A stretch of DNA of 64,000 bases from a virus, in IMG/VR virus record IMGVR_UViG_3300027375_000003, positions 1-64,000 of that record, one strand, 5' to 3'. Shown here piece by piece: positions 1-52,208 of this stretch. Position numbers and translations under genes: made by a program. The notes beneath the pieces are model-generated. The model ran no database searches and had not been told where the DNA came from. It saw nothing but the letters and a program-made list of their open reading frames with translations. The first letter of the stretch is position 1. Every line of letters begins with the position of its first letter.

Positions 1-93
1 AGTAATAAGGCTAATGCTATCATCATTGTGATATGTGATTTCATCAGCAATCGCTTGTAAATCGGTAGTGAATTTAAGGTTGTACTTTTCCAT
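1..93 (-). CDS. Hypothetical protein, N-terminal 31 codons only
   Basis: An ATG on the minus strand at 93 opens a frame that stays open to the window edge, giving 31 codons starting MEKYNLKFTTDLQAIADE. It starts 3 bases after the stop of the next gene upstream (97-294), so the two are probably co-transcribed from the promoter near 741-769. The visible part is acidic and helix-prone with no motif I recognise. The gene is truncated by the window, so no function can be given. Confidence 0.55.
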   Translation of the reverse strand, partial: MEKYNLKFTTDLQAIADEITYHNDDSISLIT

Positions 94-26899: not shown

Positions 26900-27280
26900 A
26901 TGCTACAACACCAACATATTGTAATCCGTGCTTATGTAAATAAGCCACCTATGGCAACAGATGTGATTGAATCATGGTTAAAGGATTTGATCCAAGCGAT
27001 TGACATGAAGATTTTAAGTGGACCCCATGCTGTGTATCTTGACAAGGCAGGCAATAGAGGTTTAACAGCAGTGACTATTATTGAAACATCACATATTGCG
27101 ATTCATGTGTGGGATGAAGCAGTGCCCGGCTTAATTCAATTGGATGTATATTCATGCAAGGAATTTGACAAAGAAACAGTGTTTGCAAAGTTTGCACAAT
27201 TTGAACCTGTGAGTGTGGAATGGTTTATGATGGATCGTACAGACAAGTTATCTATTACGAATGAGATTGAGAAAATTTAA
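26900..27280 (+). CDS. speD: SpeD-like S-adenosylmethionine decarboxylase family protein
   Basis: A 126-residue protein of the bacterial SpeD class. TAVTIIETSHIAIHVWDE covers the self-cleavage region: Ser64 should become the pyruvoyl group and His65 follows as in the family, and Cys86 in LDVYSCK matches the catalytic Cys. The residue before Ser is Thr, where the classical enzyme has Glu. Members make decarboxylated AdoMet for spermidine synthesis, and some homologues have been reported to decarboxylate ornithine or arginine instead, so the substrate is uncertain. No spermidine synthase gene is nearby. AAAGG lies about 11 bases before the ATG, and the gene stands alone between AT-rich gaps. 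Confidence 0.85.
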   Translation: MLQHQHIVIRAYVNKPPMATDVIESWLKDLIQAIDMKILSGPHAVYLDKAGNRGLTAVTIIETSHIAIHVWDEAVPGLIQLDVYSCKEFDKETVFAKFAQFEPVSVEWFMMDRTDKLSITNEIEKI

Positions 27281-34881: not shown

Positions 34882-35754
34882 CTATTCTAATTTTAAAACT
34901 TCACTTTCAATTAGATTACCTTTTTCATCTATTAAATGCCTGCGATACAGATAATAAAATTGAGCACCCATAGCAGGTATTATTAAAGCATTCCATCCTA
35001 TCTTCAAAGAGGATGCAATCATTCCACTTGGGATAAAAGGACAAAATACTTGAATAAGTAAACCTAAACCTGTTTCAGGTAAAGTACGAATAAGATCACC
35101 CCATGACATTAAACCTAAAAATCCTTTAGTGATATCTGTAACCTTCCAACTTATTTCTGTTACATTTGTCCAAACTAACCAAAATACATATGCTTTAGCA
35201 GGCATAGACATGACATCAAAAACAGGATGATGATCAAAAAAATCTTCAATAATTTCTGCAAAGGTATTAAAACCACCATTGTATTTTTTAAATGCCTGCA
35301 TGATAATTTGCTTTTCTTCACTATCTACTCTTTCAAGTAAATAGTTTATTGAACTTGTTACTGTTGGTGCTTTATCTGCATATAAGAACATAAAGTACAA
35401 ATACTTATTTTTTTCCGATAGCTGTTGTTTATGCTTATTGACCCATTCTTTACCTTGTTCAAGATATCCTGCTAATTTATCATTAAGCTGGTGATATAGA
35501 GAAACATTATCTATAGCATTAATACCTAAAGTCTTTTTAAAAAGATTCCACATCTGTGGTTGCTCTTGGTACTTTTCATAAATATCTTTGAGTTTACTTG
35601 TTAGTCCAAAAAGAGAACCATGTTTAACAATTTGGTTAGCAAAAGGTATTAAGGTAGTCGCATTAAGTTCTTTTCTAACTTGATATGCACTAGCTGTCCT
35701 TATCTTTTTACTTTCTTTTATTGCTTGTATGCAGGCAAGTTTTATATATTTCAT
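34882..35754 (-). CDS. Membrane protein, paralogue 1 of a tandem triplet
   Basis: A 290-residue protein nearly collinear with 35751-36626 and more distantly with 36629-37501. It starts MKYIKLACIQAIKESKKIRT followed by ASAYQVRKELNATT, a basic amphipathic leader shared by all three. The middle is helical and charged, with hydrophobic stretches at about 187-205 (AKAYVFWLVWTNVTEISW) and 228-270 (GLGLLIQVFCPFIPSGMIAS and the following IIPAMGAQFYYLY). It ends LIDEKGNLIESEVLKLE. Probably membrane-inserted late in the chain. Its ATG overlaps the previous stop (ATGA). Function unknown; a virion inner protein or host membrane modifier are options. Confidence 0.75.
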   Translation of the reverse strand: MKYIKLACIQAIKESKKIRTASAYQVRKELNATTLIPFANQIVKHGSLFGLTSKLKDIYEKYQEQPQMWNLFKKTLGINAIDNVSLYHQLNDKLAGYLEQGKEWVNKHKQQLSEKNKYLYFMFLYADKAPTVTSSINYLLERVDSEEKQIIMQAFKKYNGGFNTFAEIIEDFFDHHPVFDVMSMPAKAYVFWLVWTNVTEISWKVTDITKGFLGLMSWGDLIRTLPETGLGLLIQVFCPFIPSGMIASSLKIGWNALIIPAMGAQFYYLYRRHLIDEKGNLIESEVLKLE

Positions 35755-36626
35755 GTTAGTTTCTCTACTTCACTTTCAATCAGTTTACCATGTTCATCTA
35801 TTAAGTGTTGTTGATACAGATAATAAAATTGTATACCCATAGCAGGGATGATCAGTGCATTCCAACCTATCTTTAAAGAAGATGCAACCATGCCACTTGG
35901 GATGAAAGGCATAAAGATTTGGATAAGAAAACCTAAACCACTTTCAGGTAGTGATTCTAAAAGATCACCCCATGAGATTTGACCTAGAAAACCTTTAATA
36001 ATATCTGTGATTTTCCAACTGACTTCAGCTACATTGACCCAAATGATCCAAAATAAATATGCTTTAGCAGGAATACTGATTGTATGTAGAACAGGATGTT
36101 TTTTAAAGAACTCATCTATTGTGTCTTTTAGGTTTCCAAATCCATCTGATAATTGTTTAAGTTTTTTAGACAGCTTAGATGAATTATCAGGATTGATCTT
36201 TTCAAGTAGTGTTTTTATAGAACCTGTTATTGTAGGTGCATTCTCTGCATATAAGAACATAAAATAAATTAGCTTGTTTTCTTTTGCTAGTTTCTGTTTA
36301 TGTCCATCAATCCATTTTTTACCTTCTTCAAGATATTCAGATAACTTTTCATTAAGTTGCTTATATAGAGAAACAACATTAGTCGCAGTGATACCTAATT
36401 TTTCTTTAAACTTTTCCCAAAGGTTTGGCATCTTTTGAAAACCTTCATAGATTTGTTTAATTTTACCAACAAGACCTTTAATAGAACCATACTTAACAAT
36501 TTGATTGCCAAAAGGTATTAAAGTAGTCGCATTAAGTTCTTGTCTTAAATGTGATGCAGTTTTATATTTAATGCTTTTATGTACTGCTATTTGACAGGCA
36601 AGTTTTATTAAAATTTCTCTTTTCAT
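35751..36626 (-). CDS. Membrane protein, paralogue 2 of a tandem triplet
   Basis: A 291-residue close paralogue of the downstream gene: the same leader (IKLACQIAVHKSIKYKTAS), the same RQELNATTLIPFGNQIVKYG block, the same WGDLLESLPESGLGFLIQIF and FIPSGMVASSLKIGWNALII hydrophobic region, and a similar end (LIDEHGKLIESEVEKLT). By eye well over half of positions agree, so the duplication is fairly recent. Predicted helices and C-terminal membrane segments as in paralogue 1. AAAGGACA lies upstream of ATG 36626. It is coupled to the downstream copy by a 4-base overlap. Confidence 0.75.
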   Translation of the reverse strand: MKREILIKLACQIAVHKSIKYKTASHLRQELNATTLIPFGNQIVKYGSIKGLVGKIKQIYEGFQKMPNLWEKFKEKLGITATNVVSLYKQLNEKLSEYLEEGKKWIDGHKQKLAKENKLIYFMFLYAENAPTITGSIKTLLEKINPDNSSKLSKKLKQLSDGFGNLKDTIDEFFKKHPVLHTISIPAKAYLFWIIWVNVAEVSWKITDIIKGFLGQISWGDLLESLPESGLGFLIQIFMPFIPSGMVASSLKIGWNALIIPAMGIQFYYLYQQHLIDEHGKLIESEVEKLT

Positions 36627-36628
36627 TC

Positions 36629-37501
36629 CTAATGTCCTTTCAATATTCTTAGTTCTTCATCTAAATATCCTTCTTGATAAAGGAAATAAATCTGAAAAGG
36701 TAAAGTCTTATATTTCACAATATCTTCAATATCTATGAAATCCTCTAAAAGAGCAGATATGAAATCACTTAACTTATCCATAGGTAAATCATCTAGTATC
36801 TGATCACTATCTAATTTGCCTGTTAGTCCTGATACTAGATTTTTCTTTGCAAAGGTATCATCATCTATTTTTCTTGAAATACCTAAATAGACTAAAAACA
36901 CAGCTATGTTTACTGCTTTGTTATCTGTCTTTTTAATTTTTTCTTTTAATAAATCCCAAATCTTTCCTAACCAATCCTTAACAGATGTAGCCATATTTTT
37001 AAGTTTATCTATACCTTGTTGGATTTTAGCAGGTAGTTTAGCATATAAGTTCTCTAACCATTGTTTCGCTTGTGTATATTCTAATTTAGACACTTTATAC
37101 ATGATGTTTAAGAAAGGTATATCTTTAATAACACTTTCTAACCACTTGCCAAAATTGGATTTAAAATTAGGCAAGTCCATTAGCATAGAACCAATATTTT
37201 TAGGATCGAGATTTAAGGTTTTTTTAATTTCTTCCCATTTGTTTGGTTTCTTTTGTATTTCTTCATAGATATGGATTAAAGAATTTTTAGTGTTTTCATA
37301 TAAAGAAGTAATGTCTTTAATAAAAGCAGTCTTATAGAAAAGATGATTGCCTAAAACTTCTAAAACTTCAGGTGTGATTTCAGAACGAACATATCCAGCA
37401 CTAGCTGTTTTATATTTTTTACTTTCACGAATAGCATCAATAGATGCTAAACGAATGATATGTCTTTTGACTACATTATTTATTAAAACTTGTCTACTCA
37501 T
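36629..37501 (-). CDS. Membrane-associated protein, diverged paralogue 3
   Basis: A 290-residue protein sharing the basic leader (IIRLASIDAIRESKKYKTAS) and the ending type (YFLYQEGYLDEELRILKGH) with its two downstream relatives, but with a different helical middle (EWLENLYAKL-type helices; KNMATSVKDWLGKIWDLLKE) and only weakly hydrophobic segments (VNIAVFLVYLGI). It is first in the triplet, and its AAGGG ribosome site is buried in a perfect 11-bp stem (37503-37541), so its translation is probably controlled. The shared leader suggests a common targeting or processing step. Function unknown. Confidence 0.72.
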   Translation of the reverse strand: MSRQVLINNVVKRHIIRLASIDAIRESKKYKTASAGYVRSEITPEVLEVLGNHLFYKTAFIKDITSLYENTKNSLIHIYEEIQKKPNKWEEIKKTLNLDPKNIGSMLMDLPNFKSNFGKWLESVIKDIPFLNIMYKVSKLEYTQAKQWLENLYAKLPAKIQQGIDKLKNMATSVKDWLGKIWDLLKEKIKKTDNKAVNIAVFLVYLGISRKIDDDTFAKKNLVSGLTGKLDSDQILDDLPMDKLSDFISALLEDFIDIEDIVKYKTLPFQIYFLYQEGYLDEELRILKGH

Positions 37502-43736: not shown

Positions 43737-43859
43737 ATGATTAAGCATCTTTTAATTTGTTTAGCTTTATTCTTTTTAAGTAAAGAGGCATTATTTATAT
43801 ATCTAGTAGGTTTGCTTGGCTCTTATATAGAAAGCCACCATGAATCTAATGCACCATAA
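43737..43859 (+). CDS. Small membrane protein (40 aa)
   Basis: A 40-residue ORF starting MIKHLLICLALFFLSKEALF, with about 28 hydrophobic residues followed by a polar tail rich in His and Ser. Its ATG follows the previous stop after one base (TAA, A, ATG), so it may be translated by reinitiation; there is no strong ribosome site of its own. Its last 37 bases overlap the convergent T5orf172-like gene. A holin-like or other single-span role is possible. The ORF may also be fortuitous. Confidence 0.4.
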   Translation: MIKHLLICLALFFLSKEALFIYLVGLLGSYIESHHESNAP

Positions 43860-44167
43860 GGTATCTGTTCATATATCTCAACAGGCAGTGAGCCAACACA
43901 TTTATAGGAAAACCATTCACCTTTTTCTCTAAACTTTTTCAATTCTTTATGCAGTGGTCTTTCTACATTGCCATATCCTTTAAAGACATGAATCAATCTT
44001 AATTCTACAGCATTGCCTGTCTGTAATTGCTTTATACGAGCATCACAATCTTTAGCTACACCTATTTTAATAGAACCTGATCCTTTAGCTTGGATCAAAT
44101 ACATATCCTGTTCGGAATAAGGCACTTTTATCAAATCTTGTGTAAAAGGTAAGTAAAGTTTAATCAA
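43823..44167 (-). CDS. T5orf172/MUG113 (GIY-YIG-like) domain protein
   Basis: A 114-residue single-domain protein. YLIQAKGSGSIKIGVAKDCD (Tyr23, KIG at 34-36), RIKQLQTGNAVELRLIHVF (Arg44) and ERPLHKELKKFREKGEWF (Glu69, His73, GEWF) form the signature of the T5orf172/MUG113 family, a compact relative of GIY-YIG nucleases common in phages. The classical GIY is replaced by KIG. No homing-type DNA-binding domain is fused, so it may be a stand-alone nuclease or DNA-binding protein. It is transcribed away from the divergent region that holds promoter copy D. Confidence 0.8.
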   Translation of the reverse strand: MIKLYLPFTQDLIKVPYSEQDMYLIQAKGSGSIKIGVAKDCDARIKQLQTGNAVELRLIHVFKGYGNVERPLHKELKKFREKGEWFSYKCVGSLPVEIYEQIPYGALDSWWLSI

Positions 44168-44683: not shown

Positions 44684-44704
44684 AAAACGAAAGGACGAAT
44701 GAAA

Positions 44705-46531
44705 ATGTTATCTATCACAGAACTTGAAAATCTAGTTAAGAAACACAATTCTCTTTATTGGGATTTGAATGCACCTGAAATCTCTGATGTAGAGTATGAT
44801 GCACTTGTAGAGCAATTAAGAGCAGTTGCACCTACATCACCTGTCTTAAGCAGTTTAGGCACATTCGCAGAAATTGGTATGGAAGTACAACATTCTAAAC
44901 CTATGTTGTCATTAGACAAGTGTTATAATGAAGATGACTTAAAGAAATGGTCTAGGTCTTTTTCATCTTATGTATGCACACCTAAAATTGATGGTATGGC
45001 TTGCAGTATCAAATATGAAAATGGCATTTTGGTACAAGGTGCAACAAGAGGTGATGGCAATATAGGTGAAGATATTACACAAAACATTATCAACATCGTA
45101 CCAAAGCAAATTAGCATAACAACACCTGTAGAAATTCGTGGTGAATTATATATGCCTATTTCTGTATTTAATACTCAAAAGGATATCTTTGCAAATCCTA
45201 GAAATGCAGTAGCAGGTATTATTAAGAGAAAAGATGGCAATGTACAAGGCATCAAGTTTCTTGCATACGATTTCATAGGCAGTGAGTTTAATCTATTTTC
45301 TGATAAAATAGATGCACTTAAAGCATTAGGTTTTGAAATCCCATTTTATACTGTCTTTAATGGTATTGATCATCTACAAGCAGGTTATGATCATATCCTA
45401 AACATTAAAGATAGTTTGGACTATGAACTAGATGGTGTTGTTTATCGTGTAAATGATAATCAAGCATATGAAAATGCAGGATATACATCACATCACCCTA
45501 AAGGAGCAATAGCATATAAATTTCAAGGTGAGTTTGGTACAACTAAACTTTTAAATGTTGAATGGCAAATTAGCAGATCAGGTATCTTAACACCTGTAGC
45601 AATCGTCCAACCTGTGAAATTAAGTGGTGCAATGGTAGGCAGGATTACTTTGCATCATGCAGGTATGATTAAGACAAAAGGTTTAACTCTTAATGCAGAT
45701 GTTTTGGCAATAAGAAGAGGTGGTGTTATTCCACACCTTGAAAAAGTCATTAATGCAGGTGATACATCTATTGAAATTCCTGTATGTTGTCCATTCTGTT
45801 CATCAGCAACAGAACAAAAAGAAGATTTTCTATATTGCACAGCGAATTGTAGTTTATCTACAAAGGTAAGTTACTTTATGGAAAAAGTAGGTATTGAAGG
45901 CATAGGCAATGTATGGATTGAAAAGTTAATAGAAGAAGGTCTTGTCAATAACTTTGCTGATCTATATAGACTTAAAAGAGAAGATTTATTAAAGATTGAA
46001 AGTGTTGGTGAAACTAGAGCAGATAATTGGTTATCTAGCATTACCAAAAGCACTAGATTATCTTTAGATAAGTTTTTAATATCTCTTGGCATTCACAGTT
46101 TAGGTAAAAAAGCAAGTGATGTTTTAACAAGTCAATTTAAAACCTTAGATGCAGTTTTAGCATTAAAGACATCTGATATTGAAAAACTAGATGGTTTTGG
46201 CAGTATCACAGCACAGGATATTGTTAATGGTCTTAAAGCAAATGTAAATGTTATTACTGATCTTTTGCAATATATCCAAATTGACAATGGCAGTGAAAAG
46301 ACAGGTATCTTTAAAAACAAATCATTTCTTTTCACAGGTACATTGACTACCTTAAAGAGAAATGATGCAGAAGCAAAGGTATTAGAGTTAGGTGGCAATG
46401 TAGCATCATCAGTAAGCAAGAATTTAAGTTATCTTGTAGCAGGTGAAAAAGCTGGCAGTAAACTAGATAAAGCAAATGCACTTGGCATTAAGGTTATCAC
46501 AGAACAAGAATTTTTAAATATGTGTAAATGA
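44705..46531 (+). CDS. ligA: NAD-dependent DNA ligase
   Basis: A 608-residue LigA. An N-terminal Ia-like part (HNSLYWDLNAPEISDVEYDA) binds NAD, though it is shorter than in bacteria (about 670 total). The adenylation motif CTPKIDGMA has the catalytic Lys94, with ATRGDGNIGED downstream. The OB domain follows, then a four-Cys zinc finger (CCPFC, YCTANC, about 361-380), helix-hairpin-helix repeats and a C-terminal BRCT domain (about 533-608; FLFTGTLTTLKR). It seals nicks at the phage fork. ATG 44705 is better spaced from AAAGGA than ATG 44699. Its stop immediately precedes promoter copy C. Confidence 0.93.
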   Translation: MLSITELENLVKKHNSLYWDLNAPEISDVEYDALVEQLRAVAPTSPVLSSLGTFAEIGMEVQHSKPMLSLDKCYNEDDLKKWSRSFSSYVCTPKIDGMACSIKYENGILVQGATRGDGNIGEDITQNIINIVPKQISITTPVEIRGELYMPISVFNTQKDIFANPRNAVAGIIKRKDGNVQGIKFLAYDFIGSEFNLFSDKIDALKALGFEIPFYTVFNGIDHLQAGYDHILNIKDSLDYELDGVVYRVNDNQAYENAGYTSHHPKGAIAYKFQGEFGTTKLLNVEWQISRSGILTPVAIVQPVKLSGAMVGRITLHHAGMIKTKGLTLNADVLAIRRGGVIPHLEKVINAGDTSIEIPVCCPFCSSATEQKEDFLYCTANCSLSTKVSYFMEKVGIEGIGNVWIEKLIEEGLVNNFADLYRLKREDLLKIESVGETRADNWLSSITKSTRLSLDKFLISLGIHSLGKKASDVLTSQFKTLDAVLALKTSDIEKLDGFGSITAQDIVNGLKANVNVITDLLQYIQIDNGSEKTGIFKNKSFLFTGTLTTLKRNDAEAKVLELGGNVASSVSKNLSYLVAGEKAGSKLDKANALGIKVITEQEFLNMCK

Positions 46532-46533
46532 AC

Positions 46534-46562
46534 TTGCAATAAAAATTTATCTTTAGTGTTTA
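46534..46562 (+). promoter_or_regulatory. Phage promoter of the TTGCAA-17-TGTTTA class (copy C)
   Basis: Plus-strand TTGCAA (46534-46539), preceded by GAAC, a 17-bp spacer ending AG, and TGTTTA (46557-46562). It begins 2 bases after the ligase stop and 89 bases before the sspB-like ATG, so the adaptor gene has its own copy rather than relying on ligase read-through. GTATAT follows at 46564-46569 as an alternative -10. Confidence 0.7.
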
Positions 46563-46622: not shown

Positions 46623-47051
46623 ATGGATAGAAAGCAAATCCTTTTAGATCACTTAGCAATAGCAAAAACCACTGTTGCAATTAATCCTACCTATGAAGGT
46701 GTTAAATTACCAAAAGATTTAATGAGTAAAGATAATGTACGATTAAATCTTTCAAATCACTTTTCATATCCTATGCAGTTTAGAGATGATAAAGTCGTGG
46801 CAACTTTATCCTTTGGTGGTGTACCTTTTGAATGTCATATTCCATACAATGCAATCTTTGCAGTTTTCATTGCAGGTGCATCACTTGAAGATGCAGTTCT
46901 TTTTGATGATGCAATTCCTGATTCCACAAAGAGATTGATTCCTTTAATTGAATTAGGTGATATTGATGCAATGAAATTTATTTCAGATTTACAAAAACAA
47001 TTTGAAAGAGATGATATTACTGTTGGTCAATATAATGACAAACCACAATGA
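46623..47051 (+). CDS. sspB: SspB-like ClpXP proteolysis adaptor
   Basis: A 142-residue protein whose first 96 residues follow bacterial SspB: an N-terminal helix, TTVAINPTYEGVKLPKDLMS (matching the conserved strand and GV-x-P loop), VRLNLSNHF, the core VATLSFGGVPFECHIPYNAI (FGG at 64-66) and AVFIAG. SspB dimerises, binds ssrA-tagged proteins and delivers them to ClpX by a C-terminal ClpX-binding tail such as LRVVK in E. coli. Here the C-terminus (about 100-142, ending VGQYNDKPQ) has no such tail, so it may bind substrates without delivering them. GAAGGAAA precedes the ATG and promoter copy C serves it. Confidence 0.8.
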   Translation: MDRKQILLDHLAIAKTTVAINPTYEGVKLPKDLMSKDNVRLNLSNHFSYPMQFRDDKVVATLSFGGVPFECHIPYNAIFAVFIAGASLEDAVLFDDAIPDSTKRLIPLIELGDIDAMKFISDLQKQFERDDITVGQYNDKPQ

Positions 47052-47063
47052 TCATTTACTTTG

Positions 47064-50000
47064 TTACCTTGTAAATGGTGCAGGACTAATTGTTAAATCA
47101 GGTTTCTGAATTTTATTCTTAATCACAGGTCTACCTTTAATATTAAATCTATCTGCACTTGCATATCCTTCACCATATCCACTTGGTGAAATACTACCTT
47201 GTAAAGTAATTGCCTGATTCACATCTGATCTGTAAATTGCCTGTGTAATGATAACTAATTGTAATTCACTACCATAAGATACTTCATCATCTGTAGTAAA
47301 TGCAGTTTCATCAAAGTTTTGAACGAGCATAGCTTTACAAGCTAAAACACCACCTTTAAGGACAGGTTGTACACTTGTAGGAAAGCTAGTGACAACATAA
47401 GAAACAGCACCACCTTTAACTTTACCTGATGCTCCAAATAAAACAGCACCACGATGTGTTCTATAGGTTTTAGTACCTGATGGACTAAGATCAGTAAAAG
47501 CAATATATGTATCATTTACTGCTTCACTCATAATAAGAGCATCACCAGCAACACCATTCACTTTAGAATAAGCAAGACCATTGCTACCAATAGGTAAAGA
47601 GATATTAGCAGTCTTAACACTACCTAAAGTAGATTGTAAATAGCTTGATCCATCATTAAGAATATCTTCACATAAGAAATCATAATCATTTACAAGTAAA
47701 CCTAATGGCAATCGAGATGTTAAGCCTATTAAAGATGAGTCAAGTGATCCATTGCCTGCATTATTTTGAATACCTGTGCCACCTGTCATATACACTTTTG
47801 TTGTGGCATATAAAGTATCTACACCTAATTTATATGTGAACTTATTTTGATTTACAGGGAAGGTAAAATAAATAGAGATTTGAGCTTGATTCCCAATCAC
47901 ACCTTTTTCCATATATGTAAACACAATTCTATTTACATAAAGATCTATTGTATATGATCCACTAATAATGTAGTCAGATAAAATGCCTACTGTGTCAATA
48001 ATGGTAGATGCTAAACTCTCATCTGTGAAAACATTAGTGATCGCAAAGTCATCTGATTTAATTGTACCATTAGGCAATGTGATTGTAATATAGCAATGGT
48101 TTACTTGTAAGACACCATCTACAATTTTATTTTTTACATAAACTAAAGTAGCAGTAGCATTTGTTAATCCAATTTCTTTTCCATTAAAGGCTTTTGCTTT
48201 GATATGGATCAATTCTTGATTTAAGGCAGTTGGTGGTGTATGTGTAGATTCATATCCAATATCTGTTACTGTGTTCTCATAAAGAGTACCACCGATATTA
48301 CCTGTACCTAATGTCAAATAAAAATCCATAGATGCAAGCACTGCAAATCCTCTTGGATTAGTGATTGTAATAGCTGATGAACCATCTGTATTAAATTGTT
48401 TTCTTGTAAGTCCACCATAATAGTGATCATTTGGATTAAGTTGTCCTTGTCTAATAACTTCATCATTATAATTTGCAACTGATCCTCCTCTTGTATGGTA
48501 AATATCACCTTGATATGCTGTTCTTGAATACTCTACATAAAGTTCATCTGCTGATCCAAAAGGTGAAGGGATAACAACATCCACATTTTGTAATTCTGTT
48601 GGTAAGGTAGTGAGATTTACATTCTCAACACCAGCACCATCATATTTACGAATGAGAATAAAGCTATTCTTATTAATAAATCCATTTGCAAAGCCAAAGA
48701 CACAGCATTCTACTACATAATCAAAATCTGCAAATTCATCGCCTGCTACATAAGTAGGAATTTTACGAATATCAAGAGAATGTTCTGTTAAGATATAAGT
48801 ATGACTGCCTGTTGTGTCTGCTACATCACTTGCACCATCTTGTCTAATAAACATAGTGTATTTAGTAGCATCTGTTCTTAATAAATTAATAGGTGGATTT
48901 GCAATAGGAGTAACACGATCTGATTCATGTCCACCAGCTACAGATGAACCTACTTTAGCAAGGTAATCTGTTTTTTCATATACACCATAAACACGAGCAA
49001 GACCATGATAAGGTGGCAGTTCAATACCATTTAAGATATTGCCAAAGTCTGTACTTGGGATTTCAAGAGAAACTTTTCTAGCACCTAAAGATGGATGACC
49101 TGTAGTAATATCATCACTTGTACCATAATCAATAGCAGTGTAGAAAAGCATAGGCTCAACACCAGCTGAACCCTCATTACTATCACCACCAATGATATTA
49201 TAGACATCATCTGTATTTGTATTAGTGTCAATAAAGAGATGATGTAAACCATTTAAGAAAGGATCACCTAAACCTGTGTTTGTATGGAAAGGAATATCCT
49301 GTCTACCAAATTTAGGTAGGTGCATAGGTGGAAATTCAAAATAATCTTGAGGCAATCCAGCACCTGTGAAGATGCCTGCACCATCTTTATCAGTGACACC
49401 ATCTTGATAATATTGACTTAAAAGCAAATCAGTAGATGTACTTGCACGGAAGGATTGCAATAATAGATTATGTTGCTTAAAAGGTTTAAGAATTAAAGTT
49501 TTAGAATTTGGATCAGCAAAGATTTCATTATTACGATCAATATCTGCACCACCAATAACACTGCCACCAAAAGTATTAAGATTACCTGTAGGACTAGGAT
49601 CAGCATTTTTAGATGCTAAAGCATTCCATAATTGAATATGAGTATTGGCATCATATTTAACAAGGTCTGTTTCAAAAATAGTTTGAGTAGCATCAAGATC
49701 ACTAATAGCATTTCTAAGATAAGCTGTGCTTTTATTTCTTAAAGACACATTATGGATTTGATCAGGTGAACGAGCAAGACCACTGTGACCGGGTGCATAT
49801 TGTAAAGTAGCATTAATTAAAAGTTTAGATGTAGAGTATGTGCCTTCAGTAGCATAAATTTGAGATACTGCATTATTTTCATAAACAGTATGATAAGGCA
49901 AGACGATACATAAAGAAGGATCAGTAGCAGTAGTACCATCAAAAGCATAAGTTCTTCTAGTTCTGATTTCTACTGTTAAAGTATTGCCATCTGTATCTTC

Positions 50001-52208
50001 TGTCCAATTAGAGAAAGCACCATTTAAACGAAGTAAGCGAATGGTAGAATTTGTATTTAAACCACTAGCATCAGTTTCACTAGAAGTTAAACCATCTTTT
50101 CCCATGCCTATAATTTGAAAGGATTGGTTGTTTTGTGTTTTAGGTGATCCATAAACAATAGCAAATAATTCAGAACTAAAGCCTGTATTATCTTTACCAT
50201 AGTTTGTAAGAAGATCAGCTACTGATTCATTACCTAAAACTTTAGTAGTACCATCAAGTAAACTTGCAAGATTTACACCTAAATCAATTTCATAATAATA
50301 TTCAAGATTGACATCTGCACTATTAGAAATTCTTTTAATTTGAAGATCAGCTAAGACTGTTGAAATACCTGTAACTTTTAAAGATGAGTGTACAAGACCA
50401 CCAAAGATTTCTACTTTAGATGGATAACCTGCAAAAGTTGATAGTACAGGCAAAAGAGTTTTTTTGGTGAATGGATCGGTATATCCATTATCATTAATAA
50501 GATATAGCTTTAAATCTTCCTCTGATTCAGTTAAGAAACGAACTGCTTTTTGATTATTCTTAAAACCTTTTCTTGCACCACTTTGACCATCAAGACCACC
50601 TAAGTTTAAGAAAATGACAGCACCACTTGACCATGCTTGTTGATATGTACCACCACCAATATCTACACTAGGCATAAAACCTGTTGGTTTTAAATCTGCA
50701 CTAATCGTCCAATTGTCTGTTAAGCCACTATCAAAATATCCAACAGTAGTACCATCATCATTTAAAGCTGTAGCTGGATCAATAATGATATTTACATTTT
50801 TCTCAACCACTGCACTATCTGACCATACTGTTCTAATACCATTTGGAGCATCTAAAATTTCAGTATATGGTCTTGTTGTATTAGGATTACCAATAACATC
50901 CACTTGAGCCAAAGTAATACCTTTACTATCACTGCCTGTAGCACTTGATTTCCAAGTTGTTCTTAAATTATTTGTGATCAAGTCATTTACTGCATTTTGC
51001 AATAGCTGTGAATAATCAAATCCTGTTAAAGAAATGCTATTCATCAAATCTAAAATATCTTGTTCATGAATTTGATCTGCATATAAACCATCAGGTCTTG
51101 CATTATATAAACTCACTTGTGTAGATGCTAGATGAGATTTAGCTTGAGTACCTAATTGACCACGAACAATAACAATAGCACCTGTGCCTACATTCACACT
51201 AGAGATCAAAACAATCTCTTTATTAATGCCTGTGTTTAAAACTAGATAATCACCTACAGAATTACCTTCATCTAAACCACTGCCTACAATAGAACTGCCT
51301 AAATTTAAAGTAGTAGCAGATGAAGTCAAACTTGCAGATAAAATAGCTTGTGTTAAGGTTTTAGGTGTAGATGATGATCTTACAGATGCACCATTATGTG
51401 TAGGTGATGAACCATTAAGAACAGCAATATAAGAAGAAGTAGATCGTCTAAAGACAGCACAAATAGGAATAGCATAGGAATAATTATCTGTTGATTCAAA
51501 ATCAACAGATGATGCTTTCCAGCAGGATGGATCACCTTCGCTTGCCATATTAGTATATACTGCACTTGTCACAGGATTAATAGAATTACCTTGACCAAAA
51601 ACAGATGGATCACCTAAGCCTTGTGGATAAGTGTCAATATCAATATTAGTTTCTACTCTTAAACGATATTGAATTTGAACTCGTTTAGTGGTTTCAAATC
51701 CTATGTCATTATCAATAAGATCATCTGTAATATTAGTACCACCAAATTGAGTGTTGCCATATTTATAGAAAGTAATAGCACTAGGTTTATAATCAGTAGA
51801 AGGATTTGGACTAACTAAAGATCGCCAAACTTCTAAGAAAACAAAATCTACACGATTGCCTGTGGCAGGTGGTGCAGATAATTTAATGATGTTAGAGGTT
51901 TCACTATTCGTATTACAGCCACGAATACGAATAGGCATACCATTAACAATAGCATCAATAGAATTTAATCTGAACTGATTGCTATCTAAAGGATTACATT
52001 CAAAATCAATCGCACTAATAGGATCAGCAAGAAAACCACTAGGTGTAGTTTGTTTAATTGCATCAATTAAAGAATCATTGGCAAGCTGTCCAACAAAGTT
52101 TAATTCAGAATCCAAAGGTGGTTTACCTGATTGCCAAATGAGATGTGTAAATTTAGTGTTTTGATTATTGAGAACTCTACTGACTTCTGTTCCAAAATTA
52201 TCAGCCAT
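47064..52208 (-). CDS. Very large tail fibre/baseplate-peripheral protein (1714 aa)
   Basis: A 1714-residue beta-rich protein. The N-terminal domain (THLIWQSGKPPLDSELNFVG, then LSAPPATGNRVDFVFLEVWR and SLVSP) is closely paralogous to the N-terminus of 55861-58755, most likely a shared baseplate attachment domain. The rest is extended, Thr/Ser/Asn/Gly-rich and strand-rich (NYYGG-, SVAGGHESDRVTP-type loops), as in long fibres, with no coiled coil. It ends GRPVIKNKIQKPDLTISP. Being last of the block and by far the longest, it is a good candidate for a side fibre or receptor-binding protein. AGGAGATAATTAAC precedes ATG 52208. Confidence 0.72.
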   Translation of the reverse strand: MADNFGTEVSRVLNNQNTKFTHLIWQSGKPPLDSELNFVGQLANDSLIDAIKQTTPSGFLADPISAIDFECNPLDSNQFRLNSIDAIVNGMPIRIRGCNTNSETSNIIKLSAPPATGNRVDFVFLEVWRSLVSPNPSTDYKPSAITFYKYGNTQFGGTNITDDLIDNDIGFETTKRVQIQYRLRVETNIDIDTYPQGLGDPSVFGQGNSINPVTSAVYTNMASEGDPSCWKASSVDFESTDNYSYAIPICAVFRRSTSSYIAVLNGSSPTHNGASVRSSSTPKTLTQAILSASLTSSATTLNLGSSIVGSGLDEGNSVGDYLVLNTGINKEIVLISSVNVGTGAIVIVRGQLGTQAKSHLASTQVSLYNARPDGLYADQIHEQDILDLMNSISLTGFDYSQLLQNAVNDLITNNLRTTWKSSATGSDSKGITLAQVDVIGNPNTTRPYTEILDAPNGIRTVWSDSAVVEKNVNIIIDPATALNDDGTTVGYFDSGLTDNWTISADLKPTGFMPSVDIGGGTYQQAWSSGAVIFLNLGGLDGQSGARKGFKNNQKAVRFLTESEEDLKLYLINDNGYTDPFTKKTLLPVLSTFAGYPSKVEIFGGLVHSSLKVTGISTVLADLQIKRISNSADVNLEYYYEIDLGVNLASLLDGTTKVLGNESVADLLTNYGKDNTGFSSELFAIVYGSPKTQNNQSFQIIGMGKDGLTSSETDASGLNTNSTIRLLRLNGAFSNWTEDTDGNTLTVEIRTRRTYAFDGTTATDPSLCIVLPYHTVYENNAVSQIYATEGTYSTSKLLINATLQYAPGHSGLARSPDQIHNVSLRNKSTAYLRNAISDLDATQTIFETDLVKYDANTHIQLWNALASKNADPSPTGNLNTFGGSVIGGADIDRNNEIFADPNSKTLILKPFKQHNLLLQSFRASTSTDLLLSQYYQDGVTDKDGAGIFTGAGLPQDYFEFPPMHLPKFGRQDIPFHTNTGLGDPFLNGLHHLFIDTNTNTDDVYNIIGGDSNEGSAGVEPMLFYTAIDYGTSDDITTGHPSLGARKVSLEIPSTDFGNILNGIELPPYHGLARVYGVYEKTDYLAKVGSSVAGGHESDRVTPIANPPINLLRTDATKYTMFIRQDGASDVADTTGSHTYILTEHSLDIRKIPTYVAGDEFADFDYVVECCVFGFANGFINKNSFILIRKYDGAGVENVNLTTLPTELQNVDVVIPSPFGSADELYVEYSRTAYQGDIYHTRGGSVANYNDEVIRQGQLNPNDHYYGGLTRKQFNTDGSSAITITNPRGFAVLASMDFYLTLGTGNIGGTLYENTVTDIGYESTHTPPTALNQELIHIKAKAFNGKEIGLTNATATLVYVKNKIVDGVLQVNHCYITITLPNGTIKSDDFAITNVFTDESLASTIIDTVGILSDYIISGSYTIDLYVNRIVFTYMEKGVIGNQAQISIYFTFPVNQNKFTYKLGVDTLYATTKVYMTGGTGIQNNAGNGSLDSSLIGLTSRLPLGLLVNDYDFLCEDILNDGSSYLQSTLGSVKTANISLPIGSNGLAYSKVNGVAGDALIMSEAVNDTYIAFTDLSPSGTKTYRTHRGAVLFGASGKVKGGAVSYVVTSFPTSVQPVLKGGVLACKAMLVQNFDETAFTTDDEVSYGSELQLVIITQAIYRSDVNQAITLQGSISPSGYGEGYASADRFNIKGRPVIKNKIQKPDLTISPAPFTR

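Follow-up and report, generated by a model that had tools for sequence, protein, structure and literature searches.

The locus

The window (the whole 64,000-nt stretch that was analysed) is contained in a 90-kb virus record and carries an SspB-like gene together with a likely ribosome-binding site and a phage promoter motif (Table 1). Orthologues in two further virus genomes and the fold match described below led us to reject a chance ORF. The window appears to be part of a large phage genome, because the relatives of its DnaB helicase include the 316-kb contig G004 (96% identical) and the 485-kb LR745208. Two longer records (147 kb and 196 kb) show no difference over the 10,426 nt compared; they were counted as one virus and may be the same virus. 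Repeat searches for further viral relatives gave only the same four contigs, and tblastn was unproductive both with the window protein against phages and plasmids and with the orthologue of the related sequence L003 against phages.

An earlier reading of this DNA, made from sequence only, had proposed that the gene possesses its own copy of a phage promoter and that this suggests an early role. The promoter copy was borne out, TTGCAA-N-GTGTTTA being present at two sites in the window where 0.08 are expected. The pattern TTGCAA-(11-17)-AGTGTT has five copies in the window (46534-46562 and 44214, and on the minus strand 39768, 5351 and 769); the 196-kb record has 26 and G004 has 45. In 24 of these 26 and 37 of these 45, an ORF on the same strand follows at a distance of 15-110 nt; letter shuffles give 0.3 (196-kb record) and 0.5 (G004) copies. 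The promoter copies of G004 more often read TTGCAAAG and AAGTGTTATA.

Table 1. Features of the SspB-like gene and its neighbourhood (nucleotide positions in the window).
Feature	Position	Strand	Basis or remark
NAD-dependent DNA ligase (ligA)	44699..46531	+	5′ neighbour; yardstick for rate
Phage promoter motif TTGCAA-N-AGTGTTTA	46534..46562	+	starts 89 nt upstream of the SspB start codon
Likely ribosome-binding site AAGGAAAA	46610..46617	+	read from sequence
SspB-like gene	46623..47051	+	142 codons and stop; frame intact; Pfam, phmmer and fold support
Folded SspB core, residues 1-96	46623..46910	+	AlphaFold2 model and alignment to 1ou8
Core elements: first helix H3-13; strands 16-20, 39-43, 57-64, 67-74, 78-83			AlphaFold2
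C-terminal part, residues 97-142	46911..47048	+	without LRVVK-like XB end
Predicted extra helix, residues 114-128	46962..47006	+	AlphaFold2; contact candidate within block 112-135
Low-confidence end DDITVGQYNDKPQ, residues 130-142	47010..47048	+	AlphaFold2
1714-residue protein	47064..52208	-	3′ neighbour of the SspB ORF

The SspB core

The window protein is an SspB by its predicted fold, and the homology proposed earlier is supported. Pfam SspB (PF04386) matches it with an E value of 4.9e-5 at 23.8 bits, the Pfam cut-off being 27 bits; the L003 protein holding the orthologue reaches 27.5 bits, above that cut-off. With phmmer the window protein matches H. influenzae SspB (E 2e-4), and the phage SspB-like profile phrog_8945 gives a weak match (E 0.033) over residues 18-82.

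The AlphaFold2 model drew on 26 sequences, of which 21 are bacterial SspBs, and has a mean pLDDT of 81.4 and a pTM of 0.73, with residues 129-141 below 50. Foldseek returned 19 matches at E≤0.001, of which 17 bear the title SspB and the other two are chains of Agrobacterium AGR_C_3712; the E value of the model against SspB is 4.5e-6, and the next match after these 19 has an E value of 0.39. Comparison of such a model with SspB had been suggested as a check, and VIA-align against PDB 1ou8 gave a structural match with a Z of 12.4 (2.3 Å, 94 residues). The alignment extends over residues 1-96 of the model, in agreement with the extent of the core as first given.

The SspBs of E. coli and H. influenzae (PDB 1ou8, 1ox9, 8et3) have the same core fold at about 20% identity, but in full length they have an XB tail, and their first helix is longer. 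The FGG-IP region of the core is conserved in the window protein. Its first helix, the one through which SspB adaptors form homodimers, is present but shorter than that of the bacterial SspBs, and the dimer and groove may therefore be altered.

The C-terminal part

In bacterial SspB the C-terminal residues bind the zinc-binding domain of ClpX, according to the available part of PMC12373786. Replacement of the eight C-terminal residues (128-135) of P. aeruginosa SspB by alanine is described, in the accessible portion of PMC13251409, as shifting the ClpX Kd from 27 nM to 179 nM, a binding about sevenfold weaker. An SspB core split from the XB peptide gave controllable degradation only once the two were rejoined (PMC8138137, from the portion at hand).

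The sequence-only reading had noted that the window protein has no LRVVK-like end, which proved correct, and had placed 40 residues after the core, where there are in fact 46. The protein ends ITVGQYNDKPQ. In L003, where the first of two SspB domains continues straight into the second, the second ends IVIGNIEGTNKPQ, its last residues being NKPQ; the syntenic copy of G004 ends FTINANDKKQ (NDKKQ), so that a K-[PK]-Q end is common to three orthologues. The other G004 copy ends NEELKKLKS. Across the phage lineage, all five SspB domains (one in the window, two each in L003 and G004) are without the LRVVK-like XB end. Block 112-135, which includes the predicted extra helix, is 58% identical between the window and L003.

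We also considered whether a plain frameshift or an error of assembly had removed the tail, and rejected this: the missing XB motif is absent from all three frames over the 150 nt past the stop in four sequences (window, L003, L037 and L038). The identity of the 147-kb and 196-kb records, possibly of one virus, further counters an assembly error.

Copies in related phages and rate of change

At the syntenic place L003 has a 283-codon frame (L003:966-1817; P0003) with two SspB domains, 27% alike, and no stop between them. A ribosome-binding-like sequence precedes the second ATG, and the second domain may also be made alone; the frame could yield either one chain with paired domains or two products that overlap; in the predicted structure both domains are present in an uncertain arrangement (pTM 0.43). 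G004 has two SspB genes at separate places, one of them syntenic with the window. By this comparison SspB has multiplied within the phage lineage. No SspB was found in G005 (an 85-kb fragment) or G006, both relatives by DnaB, nor by tblastn in LR745208. The two-domain frame, the two copies in G004 and the fast change relative to ligA are new here. G004 also encodes a 206-residue ClpP-family protein (L080:1498-2118, minus strand; Pfam 100 bits), for which five other related records gave no match.

In the comparison of the window with L003, SspB has a dN of 0.242 (dS 0.66), the ligase part one of 0.064 (dS 0.54) and the tail-side neighbour one of 0.143 (dS 0.47). The amino-acid-changing rate of SspB is thus 3.8 times that of ligA but only 1.7 times that of the tail-side neighbour. 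Against G004, dN is 0.567 for SspB and 0.126 for the ligase. Within SspB a simple counting method gives a dN/dS of about 0.27 for the core and about 0.58 for residues 97-142, the tail comprising 45 codons; a constrained core and a freer tail are what one would predict for a protein that acts through its core. The missing tail, short first helix and high dN might be taken as signs that a host gene is decaying and no longer has a function. We consider this very improbable, because the frames are intact in three distinct virus genomes, the core dN/dS is low at the value just given, the promoter is present and two relatives possess extra copies.

Bacterial relatives and origin

We searched 398 Pseudomonadota genomes with a profile built from four phage-lineage sequences, and 175 of them matched; the best E value was 1e-23, compared with 8e-5 for the gamma-proteobacterium G007. 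Twenty of 21 genomes drawn from the class to which the best match belongs are among the profile matches, the exception being G075. Thirty SspB loci (L111-L140; genomes G155, G063, G079 and others) were returned, ten of them in genomes known to belong to the class, and all 30 of these SspBs, the closest among the bacterial ones examined, end in the strict LRVVK-like motif. Since they were retrieved with the phage-lineage profile, they are the top hits of that search, not a random sample. They resemble the window protein also in the segment after the core, as seen in the alignment, and differ from it by the LRVVK-like end and a longer N-terminus. Forty gamma/beta SspBs were gathered by core pattern, one of which (L057) was read from inside the gene and used for its tail only; by eye, 39 of the 40 end in [LI]x[VIL][VIL][KD]. 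The remaining one, L069, ends LKRVK, a near-fit that fails the strict pattern.

Against a profile of the 30 the window protein reaches 64.8 bits, a closeness that is partly by choice of the set; a profile of 18 gamma/beta SspBs gives it 38.7 bits and one of two alpha SspBs 11.9 bits. All five phage-lineage domains score highest with the 30-SspB profile. In a maximum-likelihood tree of 61 rows these five domains group together (99/99), are joined to the 30 (96/86), and stand apart from the SspBs of phiKZ, RAY and pf16. The tree program flagged long branches, including the first L003 domain and L038, and the window type is therefore placed more surely than the deeper copies. Profile scores and tree support common descent with bacterial SspB, with the same long-branch warning for the deeper copies, and on both we rejected a gamma-proteobacterial origin like that of the named phages.

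The simplest reading of these sequences is that an ancestor of the lineage acquired SspB from such a Pseudomonadota bacterium and that its XB tail was lost in the phage. With XB ends on all 30 of the nearest bacterial SspBs, tail loss in the phage lineage is better founded than the earlier reading could know. The donor bacteria are probably, we infer, kin of the host. LigA was of no help as a host clue: 323 of the 398 genomes match, identities among the matches listed are 33-39%, and no class is prominent by eye. All 12 tmRNAs fetched from the class encode the tag ANDDVELAYAA (eight) or a close variant (four). A tmRNA of the phage's own was found in neither of two records (G002, G003), and none scored above the cut-off in G004, G005, G006 or LR745208, weaker matches being present in G006 and LR745208.

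SspB in other phages

The statement in the sequence-only reading that no phage SspB was well described turned out to be wrong, because pf16 gp18 (2017) and RAY gp039 (2023) had already been published. The pf16 authors, in the part of PMC5587285 available, stated that SspB was not reported in any other phage. The accessible portions of the two descriptions report no biochemical test of either protein. A literature search, in part on incomplete texts, found no experimentally shown function of a phage SspB and, among mainly openly available papers, no report of a phage SspB lacking XB.

tblastn with E. coli SspB matched 75 records of a phage collection, including phiKZ. Four records (two Acinetobacter "MD-2021a" contigs and two Salmonella) were treated as bacterial and left out; in the one Acinetobacter contig examined sspA adjoins the SspB gene. 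Seven distinct phage proteins were read out of the 75 records, covering one of three Vibrio records, and five of the seven have an XB-like end. These five (pf16, RAY, AH06, SNUABM_54 and phiKZ), mostly from large phages, have an SspB core like the window protein, but unlike it they have kept the XB-like end, which in phiKZ is followed by four residues, and they fit the gamma/beta SspBs best, as do all six named-phage SspBs profiled. The phiKZ protein PHIKZ232 (L014:671-1579), whose record annotation gives no function, has 302 residues with a long insert between the core and the XB-like end KLTVIKGGKK.

The SspB-like proteins of Xanthomonas phage LucasX (L012:653-1219) and Vibrio phage D181 (L162:650-1111), like the window protein, have no LRVVK-type end. 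The former ends SSMADFRARRKPSS, resembling the alpha-type end, and the latter NATVK. Both phages belong to other lineages than the window phage, which suggests, on these sequences, that a change to a non-LRVVK end happened more than once among phages.

The pf16 protein gp18 also bears on whether the fold has been repurposed in the window phage, with no link to ClpXP, for binding a host regulator such as an anti-sigma factor of the RseA/MucA type, or a phage protein. It was modelled to compete within the RpoE/RseA system (PMC5587285, in the part available), and the rapid change and the copies found here would suit new partners. Against this, no partner was seen and the core fold and FGG-IP region are retained; we regard such a role as rather improbable.

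Function

The window protein has an SspB core and no canonical tether to ClpX, and it shares its origin with bacterial SspBs that possess XB. As the ClpX N-domain tether is missing, we think it most likely a decoy: a tail-less SspB of bacterial origin, multiplied in the phage lineage, that would keep clients off ClpXP, a reading to which we give somewhat less than an even chance. Going by the fold, the core probably still binds degron peptides of clients, ssrA-tagged or other, and these clients would lack the usual tether to the ClpX N-domain. The decoy might cover the degron or compete with host SspB, and lower ClpXP delivery of particular proteins during infection would be the result. To go by its title, a 2001 paper reports that SspB and ClpX recognize overlapping parts of the ssrA tag; an SspB without its tail is then a plausible inhibitor. 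We count in favour of the decoy the fold, the absence of XB from all five domains as against its presence in the 30 closest bacterial SspBs examined and in 39 of 40 gamma/beta ones, the published effects of altering the tail or splitting it from the core, the constrained core with its freer tail, the gene's own promoter, and the absence of a zinc-binding ClpX domain from six related records. We count against it that five of the seven named-phage SspBs have the canonical tail, delivery being also a phage use, that the short first helix may alter dimer and groove, and that the recurring block 112-135 and K-[PK]-Q end could be another docking sequence.

The last point leads to the main rival, a working adaptor in which helix 114-128 or the terminal segment DDITVGQYNDKPQ docks the ClpX N-domain of the host, or another protease, and brings it clients of the phage's choosing. 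The sequence-only reading had offered both alternatives, holding substrates back from ClpXP and docking by a different sequence. The identity of the helix block between the window and L003 and the end shared by three orthologues argue for this, as does the ClpP-family protein of G004. SspB ends also vary between groups, because the alpha-type SspBs examined end otherwise, for example VVSLDSFRKK. Yet the closest bacterial SspBs have kept the LRVVK type, and their ClpX is therefore expected to read that motif; furthermore, the tail has the higher dN/dS and the second G004 copy a different end. On balance we judge a working adaptor unlikely.

More tentatively than for the decoy itself, we propose a family of phage anti-adaptors, tail-stripped cores that would be copied or joined, would cover degrons to shield selected phage or host proteins from ClpXP and would change fast with their clients. 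The duplicated genes and the two-domain frame may point to more than one client. A lineage with a client-binding core but without the protease tether offers a clean test of whether a phage uses this fold for delivering proteins to ClpXP or for hiding them from it. If the decoy is real, it would add a phage route to control of host proteolysis and a natural tool for shielding degrons.

Other observations

No ORF ending in AA, AV, ENY or ENA is present among the called ORFs of G002 (214) or G004 (363); this is perhaps avoidance of ClpXP degrons, or perhaps reflects low alanine content. The Walker A pattern is found in four ORFs of G004 and in none of the 196-kb record. Elsewhere in the window lie genes for an IMP dehydrogenase/GMP reductase-like protein (764-1831), an S-adenosylmethionine decarboxylase-like protein (26900-27280) and a T5orf172/MUG113 domain protein (43823-44167). 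Three adjoining genes on the minus strand (34882-37501) encode proteins of 290-291 residues, of which at least the first two are clearly alike by eye.
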